Shown here piece by piece: positions 1,790-18,639 of a stretch of DNA of 20,803 nt. The DNA is taken from positions 1-20,803 of IMG/VR virus record IMGVR_UViG_3300043161_000061. The stretch is one strand, 5' to 3'. The stretch is from a virus. The notes below the pieces were generated by a model. That model searched no databases. It was given only the letters and a program-made list of their open reading frames with translations, and was not told the origin of the DNA. Numbering within the stretch: position 1 is the stretch's first letter; each line of letters begins with the position of its first letter. A program made the position numbers and the translations under genes.

Positions 1790-4410
1790 CGGGCAATCTC
1801 ATAACTGAGCGCTGGCGCCGCCACGGCTGGCGCTTGTTGAGCCGCGCGGGCGAGCGCGAGCAGAGCGTTGGTATTCGGCGGTACTGCCGGAGGCGGCCGC
1901 AATGCCCGCAATGCGTTTGGTGAGGCCATGCGAAGCCGGGCGAGCGCGTTGAGCGCGAGGTGACCTGCCACGGTTCCGGCGACACCACCAACCGGGCCAC
2001 CAGCAGCAAACCCGACGCCCGCGCCGAGCGCGTGGCCGACAATCCTGCGCGACAAGTGGTTCACCACCGCTGCGCCGAGACTGTCATTGAACGAGCCCGG
2101 CCATGTCTCGCCGATCGCGCGCCCAAGCTGGAGAATGGCAGGACCGCCAGGCTGCGATGCCTGACCCGGAAACTTCTTGTATATCCGGGCGACAAACCGC
2201 TGCGGGTTGAGCTGCGTTTCACCCGGCTTCAAAGTTTTCTCGACTATCCGAAGATCCCGCCATTGATGCCGCGCGGCGCTGTAGAGAGCGGCCTCGTCGG
2301 GCGGCAACTGGCGGTTCAATGCCCCGCGAATTGCGGTCTGCGCCCGCTGCGCTAACCCCGCGACATCGCGGTTGGCGCTATCGGTCAGCCGATCCAACGG
2401 GCTGCCCCAATGCCACAGCGTGGCGGCGGATTTGCCGGAAATCACACCTTCTTCCGACGCGCGGGAGAGAATGCCGTCGATCGCCCGCACGATCGGAGCG
2501 GCCGCGCCGCCGTAATGCTCGTCACCGAGAAGATCGCGCGCCTCGCCCTTGACGGCATCGAGATCGGCCAGCAATCGCGTGTCGCGCCCAATGTCGATGT
2601 CGTGACCCTTCTCGATGCGCTCCAGCGTGGCGCCGGTACGGCTACGGATGCCGGCCAGGAACTCGGGGGTCAGCCTGTCCGCGTTCTCTCCAAACAGGCG
2701 GGCCGCGGCCTGCGTCACTGTGGTCGGAGAGACGACGCTGCGCAGAGCGTTGACCCCGGCGCCGCCAACAGTCGCCAATGCCGAACCACCGCCACCGAGG
2801 GCGCCGCCGAGTACCATCCCCTCGCCGATCTGCCCCGTCTTCTGGGCGGCAAAATTGCCCGGTGTCGTGACGGGGGATACCGCCGCGCCCGCACCACCCG
2901 CTAAGGCACCACCAAGAGCCGCACCACCGATACGCGCCAGAGCATTACCGCCAGCACCAATTGCACCAGCGCCGGGCAAAACAGCCAGCGGAGCCGTGCC
3001 GATCACATTGCCGAGAAGGCGGCCCCAATCTACGCCGGTATCGCCTTCTGAGCGTCGCTGCGCCTGGTATGCGGCCTCGCGATCCTGAATAGTCCTATCA
3101 ACCTCGGCCGTGCGATCAGGAGGCTGAGGCGCAAGCGGCTGCTCCGGTATGCCCGCTCCCGGCATTTGCTCGATGCGGGCGCCTATCTGGGCCGCACCGA
3201 TTGCCGGATCGACGATCCCAGTGCCGATGCCGCTGCCAACCTTCTCCCACCACTTCCGGGGGGGCGGCGGTGGCGGCGTGTAGATCACCGGCTTAAAATC
3301 GTAGGGGAACGTCTTGCCGCTCAGCCCCTCGATCTCCGATGGCTTGTCGCCCTTCCCGACGCCCCGGATAACAACTGGAATGAGCCCAACGCCCTCTTTC
3401 AGAGCCAATTCGGCCCGATTGCGGCCGTCGTAGTCGATGACCTTGAACTTGTTCCCCTCGCGCTTCACGTCGAGCGACGGCAAATCCTGAATCTCTTCAC
3501 CCGCATTGACGCTGCGCTGCAACGAGGTCCGCTTTGCCCGGTTGGCCGCGTCGCCCTCCAGCGGTGGCAACATGGCGAGGTAGTCGAGCGGGTCGAGCCA
3601 TTGCACGGCAGCATCCGGTATCGAGGTCCCATGCCGGAGCGCGTCGGTCGATACCTGCCACTTGCCCGCGCCAATGACGTTCCAAGGCCCGCCGTAATCT
3701 TTCGCGCCGAATCCCGTCCACTGGTACGCGAGCGATTCTGTGTTCAGTTTGCCGGATTTTAGATCCTCGCGGAGCCGGGCCTCGCCGCCGGGATAGACCT
3801 TACTGGCGTTGAGCCAGGTCATTGCGCGTTGATCGTCGTCGCTCGAAAAATCCGGATTGCGGCCAAACCTTGCCTGAAAATCCGGCTTGAGGCCGTTCCA
3901 TGTGTCCGGTTCCCACTGCCCCGGACCAGCGGCATGCGTCACCTTGCCAGTCTTCGGATCAACCCTGCGCGCGGCCTCCCCGGGATGCTCTCTGCCGGGC
4001 GCAAAGGGATCACCGCCGTAGACTTTCCATGGATTGTCAGCAGTGCCTTCGGCACGCCGGACCTTGTTGTAGAGAAGATCCGCCTCGGGCGGTAATTCTG
4101 TTCCGGAGGCCGGCGCTGTTCCTTGATGCGTCCCGGCGGGAACGGTGACGTAGATCCCGCCCGGCTTCGCGTCGGAAAGGTTTTTCGCCTCGCCCTTCGG
4201 AACCGAGACAACGGGCGTCTTGTCAGCCAATGGCGCGTTTTGCCACCGGCTCACGGGCATTTGCGAGACGACCTCCCAACCCATCGACCGAGCGGCGGCG
4301 TCGGCCTGAGTCAGCGGAACAAGCGGCGGCAGATCATCGTCCTTGACCAGCGGGTAATCATTCCACCGCGGCGTCGCCGGAGGAGTCGTTGGATCGCTGC
4401 CGTAGGGCAT
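1786..4410 (-). CDS. Large virion protein with lysozyme-like domain (putative ejection protein)
   Basis: An 874-residue multidomain protein. Residues about 111-205 resemble phage lysozyme/GH104-type muramidases: VRRAEGT with candidate catalytic E121, a YGG turn at 131-133, an AAGPGQWEPDTW segment at 160-171, and an acidic DFSSDDDQRA segment at 187-196. Residues about 275-352 look like a ParB/DGR-type module (IDYDGRNRAELALKEG, 325-340). A proline run at 379-384 is followed by a hydrophobic glycine-rich zone at about 465-560 that could enter a membrane, then a helical C-terminus. Lytic plus membrane-active parts in one late gene fit an internal virion or DNA-ejection protein, but a tail-associated lysin is also possible. 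It starts 1 base after the preceding stop and ends in a GTGA overlap with the next gene. Confidence 0.65.
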   Translation of the reverse strand: MPYGSDPTTPPATPRWNDYPLVKDDDLPPLVPLTQADAAARSMGWEVVSQMPVSRWQNAPLADKTPVVSVPKGEAKNLSDAKPGGIYVTVPAGTHQGTAPASGTELPPEADLLYNKVRRAEGTADNPWKVYGGDPFAPGREHPGEAARRVDPKTGKVTHAAGPGQWEPDTWNGLKPDFQARFGRNPDFSSDDDQRAMTWLNASKVYPGGEARLREDLKSGKLNTESLAYQWTGFGAKDYGGPWNVIGAGKWQVSTDALRHGTSIPDAAVQWLDPLDYLAMLPPLEGDAANRAKRTSLQRSVNAGEEIQDLPSLDVKREGNKFKVIDYDGRNRAELALKEGVGLIPVVIRGVGKGDKPSEIEGLSGKTFPYDFKPVIYTPPPPPPRKWWEKVGSGIGTGIVDPAIGAAQIGARIEQMPGAGIPEQPLAPQPPDRTAEVDRTIQDREAAYQAQRRSEGDTGVDWGRLLGNVIGTAPLAVLPGAGAIGAGGNALARIGGAALGGALAGGAGAAVSPVTTPGNFAAQKTGQIGEGMVLGGALGGGGSALATVGGAGVNALRSVVSPTTVTQAAARLFGENADRLTPEFLAGIRSRTGATLERIEKGHDIDIGRDTRLLADLDAVKGEARDLLGDEHYGGAAAPIVRAIDGILSRASEEGVISGKSAATLWHWGSPLDRLTDSANRDVAGLAQRAQTAIRGALNRQLPPDEAALYSAARHQWRDLRIVEKTLKPGETQLNPQRFVARIYKKFPGQASQPGGPAILQLGRAIGETWPGSFNDSLGAAVVNHLSRRIVGHALGAGVGFAAGGPVGGVAGTVAGHLALNALARLRMASPNALRALRPPPAVPPNTNALLALARAAQQAPAVAAPALSYEIAR

Positions 4411-4411
4411 C

Positions 4412-4675
4412 TCAGCGCCGCGCCCCGTGCGAAATCTGGTCGAAGGTCAGGGTCACCTGCGCCGGGCTATGCGACACTTCCACTTCCATCACCGTCACCC
4501 CGGTCGAGCTAGGTTTTGTCGTGCTAGGTGTGGTCGTGGTCGGCGCTGCCGTGCTCGACGAGCCGTAGGTGTACCCGCTCGCCAGCGCGTTGTTGAACGC
4601 GCCAGCATCGAGCACCAGCATGTCGGGCGCGCCCGGCTTCGATAACCACACCGGGAAATGCGCTGGCGTCGTCAT
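4412..4675 (-). CDS. Hypothetical protein with one [FY]P module, 87 aa
   Basis: The N-terminal part (residues about 6-36, beginning HFPVWLSKPG) matches a module that occurs three times in the next gene upstream. It has F/Y-P, a short beta-like stretch, a turn, a hydrophobic strand and a helix ending in Gly. A threonine/serine/proline linker at about 38-57 separates it from a C-terminal strand-rich tail (VTVMEVEVSHSPAQVTLTF). The start overlaps the upstream stop as ATGA, and the 874-residue gene begins one base after its own stop. No function is known to me. Linker-separated small beta modules in a late operon suggest a virion decoration or head-fibre role, which is a guess. Confidence 0.65.
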   Translation of the reverse strand: MTTPAHFPVWLSKPGAPDMLVLDAGAFNNALASGYTYGSSSTAAPTTTTPSTTKPSSTGVTVMEVEVSHSPAQVTLTFDQISHGARR

Positions 4676-5082
4676 GCGGCCGCGGGCGGCGGCGCCGGGG
4701 TATCGAGTGGGCCGACCAACCTTTCGTGCTCCTCGCGGCTATGCACGGTGACCTGTTGCAAGCCGCCGGAAATCGAGATTGTCATCGGATATTCCGGCGG
4801 TGCCTGAATTTTGCCGGCCTTTGCCAGCTTCAATTCCCGCTCATCGTTCACGATCATCCGCTCACCGTTTCCGAGCGTCAGCCACATCGGAAATTGCTGC
4901 GGTTGGTAACCGCCAGGCGCACCGTTCCGCGATTGGGCATAACCGTCAGGATCGCTTCGGCCACGCCGCTCATAACCCTGCTCCCGAAACCGCTTCTCGT
5001 CGGCTTCGGTGGCTGCCACCACGGCCGGCCGATCGGGATGCTGGAGCATCACCGGGTATTCGTGAAAACCAGTTTCGCTCAT
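4672..5082 (-). CDS. Hypothetical protein with three [FY]P modules, 136 aa
   Basis: A 136-residue protein holding three copies of a roughly 30-residue module: residues 8-38 (HEYPVMLQHPDRPAVV), 63-92 (QFPMWLTLGNGERMIV) and 97-125 (EYPMTISISGGLQQVTV). Each is Y/F-P, a short strand, a glycine/proline turn, a hydrophobic strand, then a charged helix. I recall similar YP-x-L-YHP modules in other phage proteins, without a function. A glycine/glutamine linker separates copies 1 and 2, and the tail is proline/alanine-rich. The ATG at 5082 is the likely start. In the older, unshifted frame the preceding gene would end 12 bases upstream of it, giving a tight operon. Confidence 0.65.
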   Translation of the reverse strand: MSETGFHEYPVMLQHPDRPAVVAATEADEKRFREQGYERRGRSDPDGYAQSRNGAPGGYQPQQFPMWLTLGNGERMIVNDERELKLAKAGKIQAPPEYPMTISISGGLQQVTVHSREEHERLVGPLDTPAPPPAAA

Positions 5083-5792
5083 CGATTTCTCCCGTCACCA
5101 AATCCGCTTTGACCCGAGTTCCGCTTGGCGGCGCACCAAGTAGCTTTCCATCGATTCCTCGCGTCTCGGCCGAGCGGGAGTTGCCTGCCGCGGCGTCTCG
5201 GCTTTCGTTGATCTCGTCGAGCCATGCGGGCGGCGCGCTTCGGCGATCTCCGCGCTACGGCGTCGCAGGTAGGTGTCGTTGTCCTCGGCATCCTCGTCCC
5301 GCTTCGCCCCGGCGAAGCGGCCAATGGTTGCCGCGAGCTTGCCGATTTCGACCGATTGCAGACTTGGGGCGAGTTTCGCGATCCGGGCCGCTTCGGTTGG
5401 GTTTTCGCCGAGATAGCGCGCGACCGAACGGCACTACCGCTGCCCAACAACGCCGCGCCCATCGCGTGAGTAATCTGCAATGACGGATTGTTGATCGTCG
5501 CCCTGACTTCGGGGCCGGCCTTCGCGAGCTGCGCCTCCCATTGCGTGCCGATCTCGCGGACGGCGGCGGCGGCTGCCTGCTGATCGCCTACAGCGGTGGC
5601 TCGATCCAAGCGCGCAAGGCCGTCTGACAGCTTATCCGGTGCTACAGGAACCGGCGCCGGGGGCGGTTGCTCGATCACCGGCGAGTCGGAGGTCGATGAC
5701 AGTGCCGGGCCAGTGCGCGCTGGCTGAGAGAGGTTGATATCGAGCTTCTCGACCGGAGCCAGATAGCTCGCGGCGCGCAGAGTGTCGGTCAT
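5079..5792 (-). pseudogene. Frameshifted late-operon protein
   Basis: The open frame from the ATG at 5792 (TAATG overlap with the previous stop) reads well for about 120 residues, ending MGAALLGSGSAV. It then turns into an arginine/serine/proline-rich stretch of over 100 residues with no protein-like pattern. Another minus-strand frame, open from 5433 to a TGA at 5095, continues plausibly: ARYLGENPTEAARIAKLAPS, then EIGKLAAT, and a charged tail ending LVRRQAELGSKRIW. This ARYLGENP-type segment is one I recognise from hypothetical late proteins of alphaproteobacterial phages. A single-base indel between about 5421 and 5433 would rejoin the two halves. Both outcomes are possible: a real loss of function or a sequencing error. 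An ATG at 5816 also exists, but 5792 fits the operon better. Confidence 0.7.
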
Positions 5793-8088: not shown

Positions 8089-8787
8089 TCAGCCATGCCG
8101 CGCGCACATCGTCTGTCCGGGGAGCGCGGGTTTGGCGCAGCCGGTGCCGAGGGGCCATCGACAGATCGGGGTGTCACCACCCGAGGCAACACCCGCGCCG
8201 TTTACCTTCTCTGCACGGTTCGGCTGCTCAGCCTCACTCCGAACAGCCTCAGCACTAACCTCAGTGCCATAACCCCCCTCTTCCTTGAGACTGTCGCTGC
8301 CCTGGTAAGAACTTCTATAGAGCGCCTTCCCTTCGGTAGGCAGATTTCCGCTAGGCTCTGCCTTCCCTTCGGTAGGCAGTTTTGAGCCATCTGCCTTCCC
8401 TTCGGTAGGCAGCCCTGCCTCACTTTCGGTAGGCAGATTTCCCGGTTTCCGGAACTCGCGCCATGCGTTGCTCGGGGTGCTCCCGTCATGGAGCGGGAGC
8501 CAGGTCAACTCGTAAGTGGTGGCGATCCGCAGACCGTGGCGATGACAGACGACCAACCCACTTTCCTCGGCTTCGCCGATTGCGGCTGTGACATGTCGTG
8601 GGGCAATACCGAAAGCCACAAGCTGACGGCACGGCGCCTTCAGGTTGCCGTTTTGCCGACCACCGCGCCGCATGTGCTCGATCATCAGGAATCGCACGAC
8701 TCGGAATCCGTTGATGCCGAGCGATCCGAACACTGCGCTTTCCAGCACATCGCGCGGCAGTTTGATAAACTGCTCTTTGCCGCTCAT
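8089..8787 (-). CDS. Winged-helix, replication-type protein with repeat linker
   Basis: A 232-residue protein. The first ~100 residues resemble the helix-turn-helix domain of phage replication proteins of alphaproteobacteria (FRVVRFLMIEHMRRGGRQNG, then FGIAPRHVTAAIGEAEESGL, then a beta wing TTYELTWLPL). Residues 118-156 are a linker with four LPTE-type repeats (three full LPTEGKA), matching the DNA repeat at 8322-8436. The C-terminus carries C209, C217, C228 and H231 in a pattern like the tail of GcrA (CRWPLG...CARHG). The start overlaps the primase stop as ATGA. It probably works with the primase and helicase in starting phage replication, by binding the origin; this is inferred from fold and position. 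Confidence 0.6.
   Translation of the reverse strand: MSGKEQFIKLPRDVLESAVFGSLGINGFRVVRFLMIEHMRRGGRQNGNLKAPCRQLVAFGIAPRHVTAAIGEAEESGLVVCHRHGLRIATTYELTWLPLHDGSTPSNAWREFRKPGNLPTESEAGLPTEGKADGSKLPTEGKAEPSGNLPTEGKALYRSSYQGSDSLKEEGGYGTEVSAEAVRSEAEQPNRAEKVNGAGVASGGDTPICRWPLGTGCAKPALPGQTMCARHG
8322..8436. repeat. Four in-frame copies of a 22-bp palindromic repeat
   Basis: Plus-strand copies CTGCCTTCCCTTCGGTAGGCAG or variants start at 8322, 8358, 8391 and 8415. The outer six bases are inverted (CTGCCT/AGGCAG) except in the first copy. Starts are 36, 33 and 24 bases apart, all multiples of three, so the reading frame of the host gene is kept and each copy codes LPTEGKA or a variant. They could be protein-binding iterons of an origin, hairpins in the mRNA, or an expanding mobile repeat. 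Confidence 0.75.
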
Positions 8788-9698
8788 GGCCGCCCCCGCT
8801 GGTTGAGTACGTCGAGCCAGTCGGTATCGGCGATCGGCGGAACGTGAACTTCGACGGTGATCCCGTCGCGATTGGCCCGGTGTGCGAGCTGATAGGCGGC
8901 GGACTGGCCGACATAATTCGCATCGTTGTCGGCGAAGACATGCAGCCGCAGCAGCCCGCGCGGCGGCTCAAATGTCTTGATGCCGTTGGCGGTCAGCGCG
9001 GCCCATACCGGCACCCGGAACAGCTCGTGCGCGGCGAGCGCGTTCTCGACGCCCTCGGCAACGCCGAGGTCTTCGTCCGGCTCTTGCAGGCGGACTGCGC
9101 CGCCGTTGATTGTCGAAACCGCGGGCAAGCTCTTTTTGCGCGGCTCGACCTCGGCGTCATAGATGCGATGCGCCGATTGCAGGCTCCCCTCCGGCCCGAT
9201 GATCGGCGCCACGACCGCTGGGTAACGGCCGACTAGATGCCGATCGTCATCGAAATACGGGCAGCGGGCATCGCCGCGCAGCACCGATGAGGTGACGGTA
9301 AGACCGCGGTGCTGGAGATAGGCGGCGGCGACGCCGGGATCGCGAGCCTCAGCCAAGGCACGCTCAATCGCCCGTAATCGGCGCCCTGCATCGTCCTTCT
9401 CGACTGCCTCAGGTCGCTCTATTGGGCGAACCTCGCCGAGTATCTTGTCGATGGCGTCGCACGCGGTCTTGAAATTCCAACCGTGCTTTTTGCGAATCAA
9501 GATGATACCGGCGCCGGCCCCGCATTGCCCGCAGTAGTAGGTTCCCTCTCCGTCCTTATCGTCGAACCGGAACCGATCCTTGCCGCCGCAGAGCGGGCAG
9601 GGTCCGTGCTTTTTCGTCAGGAACCGCGTGTCGATGCCGAGTTGCGGGAGGATCTCACGCCAGCGGTGACGGGCGCGCTCGATGGTTTCGCCGCTCAT
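8784..9698 (-). CDS. Phage DNA primase (zinc finger plus Toprim)
   Basis: A 304-residue primase that makes RNA primers for phage replication. The N-terminus has a CHC2-like zinc ribbon with C34, C37, C56 and C59 (CPLCGGKDRFRF, then YYCGQCG). A Toprim domain at about 208-285 follows: the catalytic glutamate in VAEGVENA (E215), the D-x-D motif in FADND (D257, D259), and a final DTDWLDVL. This layout matches the short P4-type/DUF7146 primases of prophages. No helicase domain is fused; a separate SF2 helicase is encoded just upstream with an ATGA overlap, and the replication-type protein follows with another. All key residues are present, so it is probably active. Confidence 0.88.
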   Translation of the reverse strand: MSGETIERARHRWREILPQLGIDTRFLTKKHGPCPLCGGKDRFRFDDKDGEGTYYCGQCGAGAGIILIRKKHGWNFKTACDAIDKILGEVRPIERPEAVEKDDAGRRLRAIERALAEARDPGVAAAYLQHRGLTVTSSVLRGDARCPYFDDDRHLVGRYPAVVAPIIGPEGSLQSAHRIYDAEVEPRKKSLPAVSTINGGAVRLQEPDEDLGVAEGVENALAAHELFRVPVWAALTANGIKTFEPPRGLLRLHVFADNDANYVGQSAAYQLAHRANRDGITVEVHVPPIADTDWLDVLNQRGRP

Positions 9699-11206
9699 GC
9701 GGAGGCCCGCTGTTTGGCTTGCGCTTTGGCGTAGGCGATCTGTCGGGAACGTACCCAGGCGCGAACCGCATCGTCAGGCGGCGATGGTTCGGCGAAGCGC
9801 CACGAGGGCCATGCCCCGAATTTTTCGCGGAACTTGTGAGCGGCCCATCCCTGCTGGTAGCCGCGCTCGCTGGCGATGTAGAGGAGCTGACCAAAGAAGC
9901 GCCGCTGATCGATCGCCGCGGCAACGATACTGCGGTCGCGCTCCACCCTGCCGAGATCGCCATCGATGACACCAACGGCGGCTGGTTTCGGCCGCGGGCG
10001 CCAGCCGCAGGCGCGACACGCCTGGCCCTCGAACCGTATGGCGTGACACTCCGGGCAGTCGGTCAGTCCTGGTGTCTTGTAGGCGAGGCGAGCGGCGTGT
10101 GCCGGGTTCTCAGCACGCCGATCCTCGTGCAGGGTCCACCGGATCGGGTCATCCGGGAAGCCGTGCTGAAATACCGCCCCGGCATGGTCGAGGATGATGC
10201 AATCCGTCTTACCCGGTGCGGAGCGCAAGCCGCGCCCAATCATCTGCCGATAGAGCCCGAGGCTTTTTGTCGGCCGAGCCAGCACGAGGCAGCCGACATC
10301 GGGCGCGTCGAAGCCTTCCGTCAGGACCAGACAGTTGCAGACGATCTCCACCTCGCCGCGAGCGAGCCGGACGAGAATGGAATCCCGCTCTTCGGTCGGC
10401 GTGCTACCGTCTATGTGCTCTGCCAAGACGCCGCTGCGCCGGAATTCGTCTCTGAGGTGAACCGAATGGGCGACGCTCGTGGCATAGACGATCGTTGACC
10501 GTCGCTCGGCGTGCCGGTGCCAATGGACGACGATATCGCCGACCAGTTGCGGCCGGTCCATTCGTTCCGCGAGCTGGCCCTCGTCATAGTCGCCCTGGCG
10601 GATGCGAATGCCATCCAGATCCGGCCGGGTCGGCGCGTAAATCCTTGGCCGTACCAGCCAGCCGGCCGCGGTCAATTCGCCGACATCCGGGCATTCGACT
10701 AGGACATCGAAGACGTTGCCGAGACCTCGGCCATCGCCCCGGCACGGGGTCGCGGTCAAACCAACCACCACCGCGCGCGGGTATTCCTGCAGGATACGCC
10801 GATAGGTCCGGGCGCGGGCGTGGTGAGCCTCATCTACAACCACGATGTCGGCGATCGGCATGTCGATAGACGAGGAACTGATTGCCCGCGCACGTAACGA
10901 GGCGATGCTCGCCACCTGCACCGGCTCGGTCAGCCGCATCGGGTGGCCGGGCAGGATGATTCCGGCATCGACACCAGCCGCATGAAGCTTCCGCGAGGCT
11001 TGATTGATCAACTCGCGGCGATGCGCCAGGAATAGAACCCGCCGCGAACGCCGCACCGCATCGGCAATGAATGCGGCGGCAATGACGGTCTTCCCGGAAC
11101 CGGTCGGCGCGACTAGAAGGATATGTCGGCGGCCGGCGACAATCTCGGCGTTGACGCGCTCGATTACGTCGCGCTGATAAGGGCGAAACTCGGGAGCAGC
11201 GCTCAT
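9695..11206 (-). CDS. SF2 DEAH-type helicase with zinc motif
   Basis: A 503-residue ATP-dependent helicase for phage replication. Motifs from the ATG at 11206: Walker A APTGSGKT (33-40), Ia-like LAHRRELINQ, Walker B DEAH (125-128), motif III TAT (151-153), and motif VI QMIGRGLR (321-328). Next comes a four-cysteine zinc motif (C384, C387, C397, C400; CPECHAIRFEGQACRACGW), which many phage members of this SSL2-like group carry. The open frame extends up to 11431, but the ATG at 11206 overlaps the previous stop as ATGA, and the extra N-terminus is arginine-rich and unlike protein. The gene is complete and couples to the primase. Confidence 0.9.
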   Translation of the reverse strand: MSAAPEFRPYQRDVIERVNAEIVAGRRHILLVAPTGSGKTVIAAAFIADAVRRSRRVLFLAHRRELINQASRKLHAAGVDAGIILPGHPMRLTEPVQVASIASLRARAISSSSIDMPIADIVVVDEAHHARARTYRRILQEYPRAVVVGLTATPCRGDGRGLGNVFDVLVECPDVGELTAAGWLVRPRIYAPTRPDLDGIRIRQGDYDEGQLAERMDRPQLVGDIVVHWHRHAERRSTIVYATSVAHSVHLRDEFRRSGVLAEHIDGSTPTEERDSILVRLARGEVEIVCNCLVLTEGFDAPDVGCLVLARPTKSLGLYRQMIGRGLRSAPGKTDCIILDHAGAVFQHGFPDDPIRWTLHEDRRAENPAHAARLAYKTPGLTDCPECHAIRFEGQACRACGWRPRPKPAAVGVIDGDLGRVERDRSIVAAAIDQRRFFGQLLYIASERGYQQGWAAHKFREKFGAWPSWRFAEPSPPDDAVRAWVRSRQIAYAKAQAKQRASA

Positions 11207-11616
11207 TGCCGGTTCTCCAATCCGGCAACAAAGCCGCGGAGGAGCGCGCGCGCGCTCTCCTCTGCGGCCTTTAACGCATTGAATTGATGCTTCGGAAGGT
11301 GATCCTCGATCGCGAGCCGCACTAACGTCCGGAGCGTGTCGGGCTCGATGGCGTCGAGTTCGACGGAGATTTCGCCGAAGCCTCTGGCGCGGGTGTCGCG
11401 AGCTTTGGTCGGGCGCGTCGGAAGATCCCAAGCCTCAATCTGTCCCGGCGTGACGGCGAGGCGCTCGAAATGGATATCGGCATCGGGCTGACGGCGAAGG
11501 CGCAGAAACGCTTGCGATTGCGCGGCAGACGTGCCAGATAAGCGGTGTTCCAGGCCGCTATTGACATCTGCCGCACTGCCGGGTCGCAACCCCGGCAGTT
11601 GCGGCGCTGCGGTCAC
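11203..11616 (-). CDS. Truncated Toprim/Spo11-like family fragment, 137 aa
   Basis: The GTG at 11616 overlaps the stop of the AlpA-like gene (GTGA) and gives 137 residues. The C-terminal ~90 residues (FERLAVTPGQIEAWDLPTRP, then GEISVELDAIEPDTLRTLVR) match a segment I know from the C-terminal part of phage-encoded Toprim or Spo11/TopoVI-A-like hypothetical proteins, where a D-x-D core normally stands upstream. Here the N-terminal ~45 residues are low in structure and show no Toprim motif, so the gene looks truncated or rebuilt. The family name is from memory and moderate in confidence. It is followed by the helicase in an ATGA overlap, so translation is likely. Confidence 0.55.
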   Translation of the reverse strand: MTAAPQLPGLRPGSAADVNSGLEHRLSGTSAAQSQAFLRLRRQPDADIHFERLAVTPGQIEAWDLPTRPTKARDTRARGFGEISVELDAIEPDTLRTLVRLAIEDHLPKHQFNALKAAEESARALLRGFVAGLENRQ

Positions 11617-12585: not shown

Positions 12586-12681
12586 CGCGCCCCCGTGGGC
12601 GTCCGCAAGAATGGTCGCGGCGGCAGTCTGGTGCGGGTGTCCGGACGTTCGGGAGCTACCCTAGCCGTCGCGATGGGAGTG

Positions 12682-13854
12682 CTATCGACTAGCGCGTAAT
12701 GGCAACACCTCGGCGGGAGTAGGCGGGTTGGTGCAGTATTTTGCCCATGCGTCGGCTAACTGCCGTCGTTTCTGGAATAGATCGCCGCGGCGGTAGGCTG
12801 CCTCGACGGCGTTTGGGATCTTATGCGCCAGCGCCGCTTCCGCGACCTCGCGGGCGAAGTTCGTCTGCTCGGCCGCCCAATCCCGGAAGCTCGACCGGAA
12901 ACCATGGATTGTCACGGTGGCGCGGCCCATCCGACGCAACAATTCCCACATCGCTTCGGTGGTGATCGGGCGACCCGTCTTCCCGCCGGGAAAGACAAAA
13001 TCGCTCTGCCGGATTTCTGCCATCGTCTTGATGACCTCGATCGCTGGAGCCGACAACGGCACCCGATGTTCGCGGTCACCCTTCATGCGCTCTGCCGGGA
13101 TAATCCACACCCGGTCGGCTATGTTGATTTCATCCCACCGAGCACCCGCCACTTCGCTGGCGCGCGCGGCGGTCAGGACCACCAATTGCAGCGCCATCGC
13201 ACCGATGCCCGGCTCGTCCTGCAGCTCGACCAGGAACTCCCCGACCTTGGGGTAAGGCATGGCTGCGAAATGCTTCACCCGGCGCACCTTGCCGCGTGAC
13301 GGGAGTAGCTTTTCGAGATGCCCACGCCAGCGCGCCGGATTTTCACGGCTGGCGGTTTCGGGCTTCTCGGTCCAGATTGGCTCGATCGCCTTCATCACTA
13401 ATCCGGTGTCGATCGCCTGGATCGGAAGGTCGCCGAGAACCGGGTGAGCATACGCGGTCAATGACCCGGTCCACGCCTTCGGGTGCTTCGCGCTCTTCCA
13501 GCCTGCCCGGTGCGCGGCAATGTAGCGGTCAGCACATTCTCGAAACGTGACGGTGGCGGCTACTGCAAGCTTGGCCTGTGTGCGTCCAGCCCTGCGGGCC
13601 TCAATCGGATCAATCTCGTCAAGACGCAGCTTTCGACACTCCTGCGCCTTCTCCCGCGCTTCGGCGAGCGAGATGGTATGCAGCGGGCCGAGGCCCATGT
13701 CGTGTAACTTGCCATCGCGCCGATATCTGAAGATCCAGCTCTTTGAGCCGGTCGGGCCAATCCTCAGATAGAGGCCCCCGCCATCGGCGAGAAAACCCGG
13801 CTTCGTCGCCTTCGCGGCGGTGACGGCTTTGAGCCGATTAATTGCCCTTGCCAT
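12682..13854 (-). CDS. P4-type tyrosine integrase, probably internally deleted
   Basis: Site-specific recombinase that inserts and excises the element. The N-terminal DUF4102-type arm-binding domain (FLADGGGLYLRIGPTGSKSW) is intact, and the catalytic residues are present: R231 (TAARASEV), K258, H317 and R320 (HGFR), H344 (LAHK) and Y354 (AAYRRGD). Between residues 170 and 171 the family's usual helix (roughly 20 residues, of the RVRGRIEAVLDWA type) is missing: IWTEKPETASR runs straight into ENPARWRGHL. The frame is kept. This removes part of the core-binding domain, so activity may be lost. The family call is firm; the deletion is judged from memory of close homologues. The start at 13854 is an ATG. 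Confidence 0.9.
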   Translation of the reverse strand: MARAINRLKAVTAAKATKPGFLADGGGLYLRIGPTGSKSWIFRYRRDGKLHDMGLGPLHTISLAEAREKAQECRKLRLDEIDPIEARRAGRTQAKLAVAATVTFRECADRYIAAHRAGWKSAKHPKAWTGSLTAYAHPVLGDLPIQAIDTGLVMKAIEPIWTEKPETASRENPARWRGHLEKLLPSRGKVRRVKHFAAMPYPKVGEFLVELQDEPGIGAMALQLVVLTAARASEVAGARWDEINIADRVWIIPAERMKGDREHRVPLSAPAIEVIKTMAEIRQSDFVFPGGKTGRPITTEAMWELLRRMGRATVTIHGFRSSFRDWAAEQTNFAREVAEAALAHKIPNAVEAAYRRGDLFQKRRQLADAWAKYCTNPPTPAEVLPLRASR

Positions 13855-16874: not shown

Positions 16875-18239
16875 TCAGCCTCGTAGGGCGCGCTGATGAT
16901 AGAATTCAGCGATTCCAGCCGCAGGCATCGGCGCCAGCAGCAGATCGGTCAGTGCCCAGACCAGCGCGTCGACCCGGTCGGGCGAATAGCCGACAGCATC
17001 GCGATCGAAGTCGCTCGAAAACGCGCACATCTGGTCTTCGAGCAATGGCTGGGCGCCCAAATGGTGCACCCTGCCCTGCTCGTACAGCGCGGCCACCGGC
17101 TCCGCCCGGGCGACCTTGCCGCGCGAGGCGTGCACCGCGGCGAACGGCACATTCGGATCGACAACGCGCAGCGTCGCCTCGACCATGTCGCCGCCATTGT
17201 TCACTTCGGCGACGATGCGGTCGGCCCGATGCGCCGCATAGGCGGCGATCGCTACCTTGGCCCATTCCGCCGGTGCGTAATGCCCGGAGGCGTCGGCCAG
17301 CACATAGCCGTGCCCGTCGACGTCGCGGCCGGCAATGATGATGCCGGTTTCGTCGGCATTCTCGTGCGAGCTGACCGCCGGATCGATCGCGACGACGATC
17401 CGCGTCAGCGCCGGCGCGGCGGTCAGGCGCGCGGCGTCGATGATGCCGTGCGTCCACAGCGCGCCCGGCATGTCGTCGAGGATCTCGCCGTCGAGCTCCT
17501 GCCGGCCAAGCCGCGTGCCCTGATAGCGCCGCACGATCTGCTCCAGGAAAGCGGGCGCCAGATGCTTCCTGTTGTCTTCGGTGCGGCCACGGGTCACGAC
17601 CACTTTCGGGTCGGCCAGCAGCTCGCGGATAAGCTTGATCGGCCGCGGCGTCGTGGTGACGATCGCGCGCGGGTCCTGCCCAAGACGCAGACCGAACATC
17701 AGCATGTCCCAGGCGGCCGGGTAGCGCCAGGCAGCCAGCTCGTCGCACCAGGCGAGATCGTGCTGCGGTCCGCGCAGCCGGTTCGGCTCGTCGGCCGAAA
17801 ACACCGTCGCGACGGCGCCGTTCGGCCAGGTCAGGCGATGCAGCGACGGTTCGTAATCGGGCCGCTCGCCGGGCGGGCCGATCGACAACAGGCCGCTTTC
17901 CCCCTCGACCATGACGGCGCGGGCGTCGAGTGCGGTCGGCGCCACCAGCGCGACATGACGGGCGAGGCCGGCAGTAACCGTCGCCCGGACAAACTCGGCG
18001 CCGGCGCGGGTCTTGCCGAAGCCGCGCCCGGCGAGCAGCAGCCACACCCGCCAATCGCCGGGCGGCGCTATTTGCGAAGGCCTGGCTGGACCCGGAGGAG
18101 CCCAGGCGTACTTCCGTTCCAGAGCCTGATTGAGCGCTCGCCTATTCTGAAGCTTCCGGATCGCCTTCCTCGCCAGCGACTTCGGCAGCCAGACGATCGA
18201 GCTCCTCGATAAGAAACTCGCGCGCCTCCTCGCCGTCAT
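16875..18239 (-). CDS. terL: Terminase large subunit (element B), complete
   Basis: A 454-residue DNA-packaging ATPase/nuclease of the Terminase_6 type. Walker A AGRGFGKT lies at 70-77, Walker B WCDE at 164-167, and the coupling motif TTTPRP at 195-200. The RNase H-like nuclease domain follows: D286 (VVAIDPAVS), E345 (RIVAEVNNGG) and D421/D424 (DRVDAL). All key residues are present. The ATG at 18239 lies inside terS and gives an overlap of 98 bases. No ribosome site precedes it and no other ATG/GTG is evident before the ATPase domain, so the exact start is unsure. The portal gene that should follow is absent. Confidence 0.9.
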   Translation of the reverse strand: MTARRRASFLSRSSIVWLPKSLARKAIRKLQNRRALNQALERKYAWAPPGPARPSQIAPPGDWRVWLLLAGRGFGKTRAGAEFVRATVTAGLARHVALVAPTALDARAVMVEGESGLLSIGPPGERPDYEPSLHRLTWPNGAVATVFSADEPNRLRGPQHDLAWCDELAAWRYPAAWDMLMFGLRLGQDPRAIVTTTPRPIKLIRELLADPKVVVTRGRTEDNRKHLAPAFLEQIVRRYQGTRLGRQELDGEILDDMPGALWTHGIIDAARLTAAPALTRIVVAIDPAVSSHENADETGIIIAGRDVDGHGYVLADASGHYAPAEWAKVAIAAYAAHRADRIVAEVNNGGDMVEATLRVVDPNVPFAAVHASRGKVARAEPVAALYEQGRVHHLGAQPLLEDQMCAFSSDFDRDAVGYSPDRVDALVWALTDLLLAPMPAAGIAEFYHQRALRG

Positions 18240-18609
18240 CGTCGGATTGCCCGTCCTTCAGCTTCTCCAATAGGCCGAGATGCCGCGCCATCGCGTCGAG
18301 CACCGGCTTCTTGTCGTGCATCTTGATCCGATAAATCTTGCCGCTGCTGGCGCTGGCGACGATCTCGGCGATCGCCGCCACCTGGTCGCGCGTCAGATCG
18401 CATGAGGGCTTGACCTGCAAACCGTCCTTGCCCGGGCCCCAGTCGGCGATGTCGCGCAAGCTGGCAAACGCGATGCGGGCATATTCTTCCAACACCCGCT
18501 CGGGGGTGATGCCGAGCCGCGCCGCACGCTCCGCAACCTCCTCGATCGAAGGCGGGGCGACACGCGCCGTCCCGCCGCGGCCACGTTCATCCCGCTCCGT
18601 CATCGCCAT
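18142..18609 (-). CDS. terS: Terminase small subunit (element B)
   Basis: About 155 residues with a pattern known from small terminase subunits of alphaproteobacterial prophages: an N-terminal helical region (SIEEVAERAARLGITPERVL), FASLRDIADWGP, then LTRDQVAAIAEIV and KMHDKKPVLDAMARHLGLL. The C-terminus is acidic (DDDGEEAREF). ATGs at 18609 and 18603 are both possible starts, and a TTG lies at 18615; a GGAAAAAT lies upstream. It overlaps terL and follows the regulatory gene pair. Confidence 0.85.
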   Translation of the reverse strand: MAMTERDERGRGGTARVAPPSIEEVAERAARLGITPERVLEEYARIAFASLRDIADWGPGKDGLQVKPSCDLTRDQVAAIAEIVASASSGKIYRIKMHDKKPVLDAMARHLGLLEKLKDGQSDDDGEEAREFLIEELDRLAAEVAGEEGDPEASE

Positions 18610-18639
18610 GCCCAATTTTTCCAGTGTGCCTATCTTGTA

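Follow-up and report, generated by a model that had tools for sequence, protein, structure and literature searches.

Repeat array and its host gene

The locus analysed here raises the question of what maintains four near-identical palindromic repeats inside an open reading frame of a virus: the function of a replication origin, the spread of a repeat, or the peptide or RNA hairpin that it encodes. The window, that is, the whole stretch of 20,803 bases that was analysed, comes from an IMG/VR virus record, and its main features are the following.

8089..8787, minus strand: putative replication initiator gene, 232 aa
8452..8787, minus strand: N-terminal winged-helix domain (residues 1-112), the predicted DNA-binding part, from family alignments, structure model and Foldseek
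8415..8436, minus strand: putative iteron 1 in gene order, CTGCCTACCGAAAGTGAGGCAG; gene-proximal copy, core altered, both arms intact
8391..8412, minus strand: putative iteron 2, CTGCCTACCGAAGGGAAGGCAG; identical to iteron 3
8358..8379, minus strand: putative iteron 3, CTGCCTACCGAAGGGAAGGCAG; identical to iteron 2
8322..8343, minus strand: putative iteron 4, gene-distal; last arm degenerate (AGGCGC, outer two bases lost); runs into the TA box
8304..8323, minus strand: TA box and probable DNA-unwinding element, GCTCTATAGAAGTTCTTACC; coincides with the least stable 20-bp duplex in the 1 kb to either side
8784..9698, minus strand: DNA primase (Toprim_3, Zn_Ribbon_Prim; phrog_510), sharing 4 bases with the start of the initiator gene
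9695..11431, minus strand: DNA helicase (ResIII/DEAD, Helicase_C; phrog_16), by domain and PHROG match
16875-18239: large terminase, 8 kb from the array; a small ORF (18142-18615) lies before it

The preliminary description had reported palindromic 22-bp repeats kept in frame in a replication-type gene. The four copies were confirmed and are non-random, as 100 dinucleotide-shuffled versions of the window yielded not a single repeat match, and the strand was corrected: the repeats and the 232-codon frame that holds them (8089-8787) are on the minus strand. Read on that strand, the copies differ from CTGCCTACCGAAGGGAAGGCAG by two mismatches at 8322-8343, none at 8358-8379 and 8391-8412, and three at 8415-8436. 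The start-to-start distances of 36, 33 and 24 are each divisible by three, exactly as had been described. The CTGCCT/AGGCAG arms ascribed to every copy are both present in three of the four, the copy at 8322-8343 ending in AGGCGC; likewise, three copies encode LPTEGKA and the gene-proximal one encodes LPTESEA. The dyad symmetry of the units exceeds that of column shuffles (p = 0.007), and because the spacers between the copies are mutually unlike, the array is not a plain tandem duplication. With the codon usage of the window, two random encodings of LPTEGKA would use the same codon at each of the seven positions with a probability of about 0.002; identical codons in the copies are thus unlikely to result from peptide selection alone, and recent duplication could be another source of them.

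The window protein had no Pfam (E 0.1), PHROG or NCBIfam match, and no replication family was hit in these searches. Its C-terminal end (8089-8180, minus strand) reads CRWPLGTGCAKPALPGQTMCARH, which we take to resemble the Cys/His motif that ends the alphaproteobacterial regulator GcrA; this end has no Pfam match. In an Rfam search of the window the repeats were unmatched and int-alpA RNA was the only hit (12603-12671, minus strand; 36.6 bits against a cut-off of 35.8), directly behind an integrase gene at 12682-13854.

Relatives of the N-terminal domain

Searches of IMG/VR contigs and of plasmids yielded about two dozen relatives of the N-terminal domain, and membership was confirmed with an HMM built from the plasmid and viral relatives; the queries used found no family member in the cultured-phage collection. 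Excluded from the counts were L010 and L024 (same as L009), L001, L002 and L008 (same phage as the window) and, as duplicates, L016, L017, L019, L027, L028 and L047, the last being equal to L033 over 1338 bases. Three records are plasmids, and it is because of these that an alphaproteobacterial host is assigned; for the window such a host is probable, as judged from these relatives. Helicase and primase genes adjoin the family gene in the window and in L009, and a helicase gene does so in L037. Most other members looked at have an integrase gene nearby, and the tested neighbours in these include neither a helicase nor a primase.

Two members have unusual family genes. In L030 (oriented 4093-5191), the intact gene is followed by two weaker matches to the family domain (E 1e-12 and 3e-4), possibly a broken second copy. 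In the Azospirillum plasmid member L004 (2950-4600), the gene is interrupted by an opposite-strand gene, presumably a transposase from its resemblance, and no array was found behind the interrupted family gene.

Position, frame and orientation of the arrays

Nearly all relatives carry a comparable array right behind the N-terminal winged-helix domain, with a TA box at its end. Behind the domain, 24 of 26 distinct members have a direct-repeat score above that of every one of 20 shuffles; the set of 26 includes L004, which is absent from domain alignment A4. The exceptions are L004 and L026, which has the domain and no array. Upstream of the domain, the score was at most 4 in all 25 members measured. 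The top-scoring repeats of L035 lie behind its box, and its iterons were identified by eye.

The repeat sequence varies between members, and the box and the layout persist. The closest relatives, L009 and L011, have five or six CTGCCACCTGATCCGGAGGCAG-like units at the place of the window array, the last two of which lie beyond the stop codon in a different register. More distant members have entirely different repeat sequences in the corresponding position behind the domain, such as GTTCACCTTCGTGAAC in L012, GGGGCGAAAGCGCCCC in L022 and AGTCTCGCTAGCGACACT in L018. Spacing within the arrays is often 23-26 and 33-36, and dyad symmetry of the units reaches p < 0.05 in 17 of 23 members. Among the 23 members tabulated for frame, the array is wholly inside the coding frame in seven, partly inside in eight and outside in eight (both sets of 23 omit L004, L026 and L035), and four members, L018, L020, L029 and L045, have inverted arrays. 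Behind the box and stop codon of L009 (5486-5580) and L011 (3190-3290), about 70 bases are strongly conserved between the two and contain a GCGCTAT/ATAGCGC inverted pair.

Two comparisons bear on whether selection acts on the DNA or on the peptide. Between L015 and L022, both with in-frame arrays, codon differences in the domain were 31 synonymous to 3 nonsynonymous, against 3 synonymous to 10 nonsynonymous in the array and box (Fisher p = 1.2e-5); the array peptide is free to change and the DNA is constrained. The contrast between L009 and L011 has the same direction and is not significant (26:9 against 3:4, p = 0.18). Iteron sequence co-varied with the recognition helix in the raw comparison (Mantel r 0.41, p 2e-4), an association that disappeared once the remainder of the domain was corrected for (partial r 0.09, p = 0.08).

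The TA box

The best form of the TA box across the family is CTACTATCTATATCTCGG. A blind scan of 2.9 million viral contigs with this sequence returned four loci, all four beside a family gene, and in one of them, L029, array and box are inverted relative to the gene. Among the 122 loci listed with an exact match to a 15-base core, nine (eight distinct) have a family gene with an array and 113 have neither, and 109 of the 122 lie below 50% GC, where a chance match is likelier. The claim of a shared box sequence is weaker for the window, L009, L011, L033, L043 and L046, because their boxes are diverged and were recognised by position and alignment; the window box, which is degenerate and scores no better than background against the 18-mer, was placed by alignment to L009 and L011.

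In 16 of 21 members, the window included, the box also coincides with the least stable 20-bp duplex within 1 kb, compared with 38 of 4200 random positions. The melting value is the best of 14 starts, with the random control treated likewise, and the boxes of divergent members were picked by eye; the 21 members omit L033, L043 and L046, whose boxes were recognised later, as well as L004 and L026. Cumulative GC skew marked no origin at the array in the window or in the related Methylobacterium indicum plasmid pVL1_6, the array of which lies at about 23.5 kb of its record.

Predicted fold and protein kinship

The domain was modelled as a winged helix (pLDDT 89.8, pTM 0.83). The best five Foldseek rows in the PDB are 4pql, 4pt7 and 5kbj only (E 5e-3 to 3e-2), with titles that name the N-terminal domain of a DNA binding protein, the structure of an initiator and a Rep-DNA complex; we take these entries to be RepA_N initiator domains. 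VIA-align also ranked 4pql first, over 91 residues at 3.2 A with a Z of 7.5, and because this Z is below 8 and the Foldseek E values are as given, the match may reflect only the common winged-helix arrangement. The best BFVD rows are phage replication initiators, and a gpO N-terminal protein appears lower down. Weak PHROG matches to replication initiation were obtained with phrog_270 in 6 of 25 members (best E near 4e-4) and with the O-like phrog_678 in 5 of 25 (best E 9e-4); an hhalign comparison of the family with lambda O alone was null.

Search for the repeat elsewhere

The repeat had also been proposed to belong to a self-spreading family, a proposal that we reject. The window contains no copy of the 22-mer beyond the four. 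Among 2.9 million viral contigs, the exact 22-mer occurs in one other, the protein of which is 100% identical, and a pattern with three free bases (19 fixed) had a single match in 84,980 genomes, in another frame of an unrelated gene that presumably encodes an acyl-CoA ligase. By our own estimate, one such match is about the chance expectation for 19 fixed bases in so much DNA. Copies in many unrelated genes, as for Rickettsia palindromic element-type repeats, were not seen in these searches.

Discussion

The array, the box, the DNA-level constraint in a pair of relatives, the family-wide architecture, the initiator-like predicted fold and the replication neighbours in the window are all observed. 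From these we infer that the protein binds to the array, that melting occurs at the box and that the site has origin activity. It is very likely, as judged from sequence, that the repeats are iterons bound by the winged-helix initiator of their own gene and that, together with the TA box, they form a phage replication origin. The reading as an initiator with an in-gene origin is adopted because the pattern equals that of lambda and pSK41, and the earlier suggestion of a lambda O-like origin within the initiator gene is well supported by the layout, the gene position, the replication neighbours, the initiator-like fold, the melting box, the DNA-level constraint and the arrays that leave the frame in relatives. 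In such an origin, initiator molecules would occupy the four sites, bending and wrapping the DNA; the TA box at 8304-8323 would melt, and the helicase and primase encoded by the adjacent phage genes would be loaded. The LPTEGKA stretch would then be a tolerated linker imposed by the DNA site.

A winged helix is also common among repressors, and CodY, GntR and MarR rows are indeed among the fold matches of the domain; the array might thus be an operator, with the protein acting as a transcriptional regulator and the TA box belonging to the promoter of the gene behind, a small gene being present downstream of the array in several members. We regard this as unlikely. In L018, L020, L029 and L045, where array and box are inverted, such a promoter would point back towards the gene of the regulator, a simple scan of the region found no sigma-70-like promoter at the window array, which itself lies within the coding frame, and initiators make up most of the PHROG and top fold neighbours. 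Binding to clustered repeats close to the protein's own gene is also a property of small terminases and centromere-binding proteins, and pVL1_6 has a ParA gene, so that the array might be a partition (centromere-like) or packaging site for the family protein. The distance of 8 kb to the large terminase argues against packaging in the window, no ParA was recognised beside the window gene, and a box at the weakest duplex better fits melting; this alternative is therefore very improbable.

The remaining alternative, that the palindrome is self-spreading or owes its maintenance solely to a role as protein linker or RNA hairpin, draws on the four near-identical copies, all in frame, and on the RNA of the window array, which folds better than shuffles (z -4.6). 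It seems to us hardly credible: the 22-mer elsewhere amounts to a near-identical contig and a chance match, relatives retain the array outside the coding frame, and between L015 and L022 the peptide changes while synonymous sites hold. The hairpin of DNA or RNA raised in the preliminary description may exist as RNA, as a side effect; it is not required to account for the array, and it leaves the constant geometry and the inverted arrays of some relatives unexplained.

As a kind, the in-gene iteron origin that we propose is already known. In lambda, the middle of O holds the origin, made up of O-binding iterons and an AT-rich tract, and iteron number varies in frame, from four in lambda to six in Stx phages with 13 additional residues, according to the excerpted text of PMC7466680. 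Lambda O and the window protein are alike in an N-terminal DNA-binding part (predicted for the window protein), four dyad-symmetric mid-gene iterons at nearly equal positions (gene nt 349-433 in lambda O, 352-466, putative, in the window gene) and an AT-rich tract behind, which in the window would be the site of melting. They differ in that the family has no direct sequence match to lambda O, that the neighbour of O is a P-type loader whereas those identified beside the window gene are primase and helicase, that lambda has a long A-rich tract whereas the family has a short TA box of shared sequence, and that arrays of relatives may sit behind the gene or be inverted. In pSK41, four Rep boxes at the centre of rep are bound by an approximately 120-residue domain of Rep, and the ori-encoded middle is a dispensable linker; RepA_N-type domain crystal structures are described in the same source (PMC5703833, in excerpt). 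The window protein resembles pSK41 Rep in its mid-gene repeats and, by predicted fold, in a winged-helix N-terminal domain that may be of RepA_N type, its top five PDB fold matches being the entries named above. In contrast, it has no Pfam RepA_N (PF06970) match and no evident DnaG-binding C-terminal domain, and RepA_N belongs to Firmicutes plasmids whereas the window is from a phage of a GC-rich, probably alphaproteobacterial host. The Sinorhizobium prophages phi2LM21 and phi3LM21 are alike by description, having HTH proteins in their replication modules as putative initiators in alphaproteobacterial prophages; unlike here, the excerpt of PMC5537653 describes no origin or repeats.

In the literature searched, the motif strings were absent, DUF6074 returned nothing, and at most analogues of the unnamed family were found; no description was found there of the protein family, the shared TA box or the range of array positions (in frame, across the stop codon, behind the gene and inverted). 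More tentatively, and with somewhat less than even confidence, we suggest that these loci constitute an undescribed phage-origin family, in which a fast-diversifying iteron array and a far stabler TA box together make up a single movable cassette, able to slide past the stop codon and to invert, the box being read by a second shared factor (of the host, or a conserved phage protein) besides the initiator. The members offer a natural series in which one DNA site lies within, astride or beyond a reading frame, a useful basis for studying how the demands of coding and of an origin are reconciled. The signature of winged-helix domain, phased repeats and TA box also locates candidate origins in unannotated phage contigs and in a candidate Methylobacterium phage-plasmid. 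The latter, plasmid pVL1_6 (L028, NZ_AP024151.1), encodes a tail tape-measure protein, ParA, a toprim protein and a RepA-type helicase, and also carries a family member with array and box.
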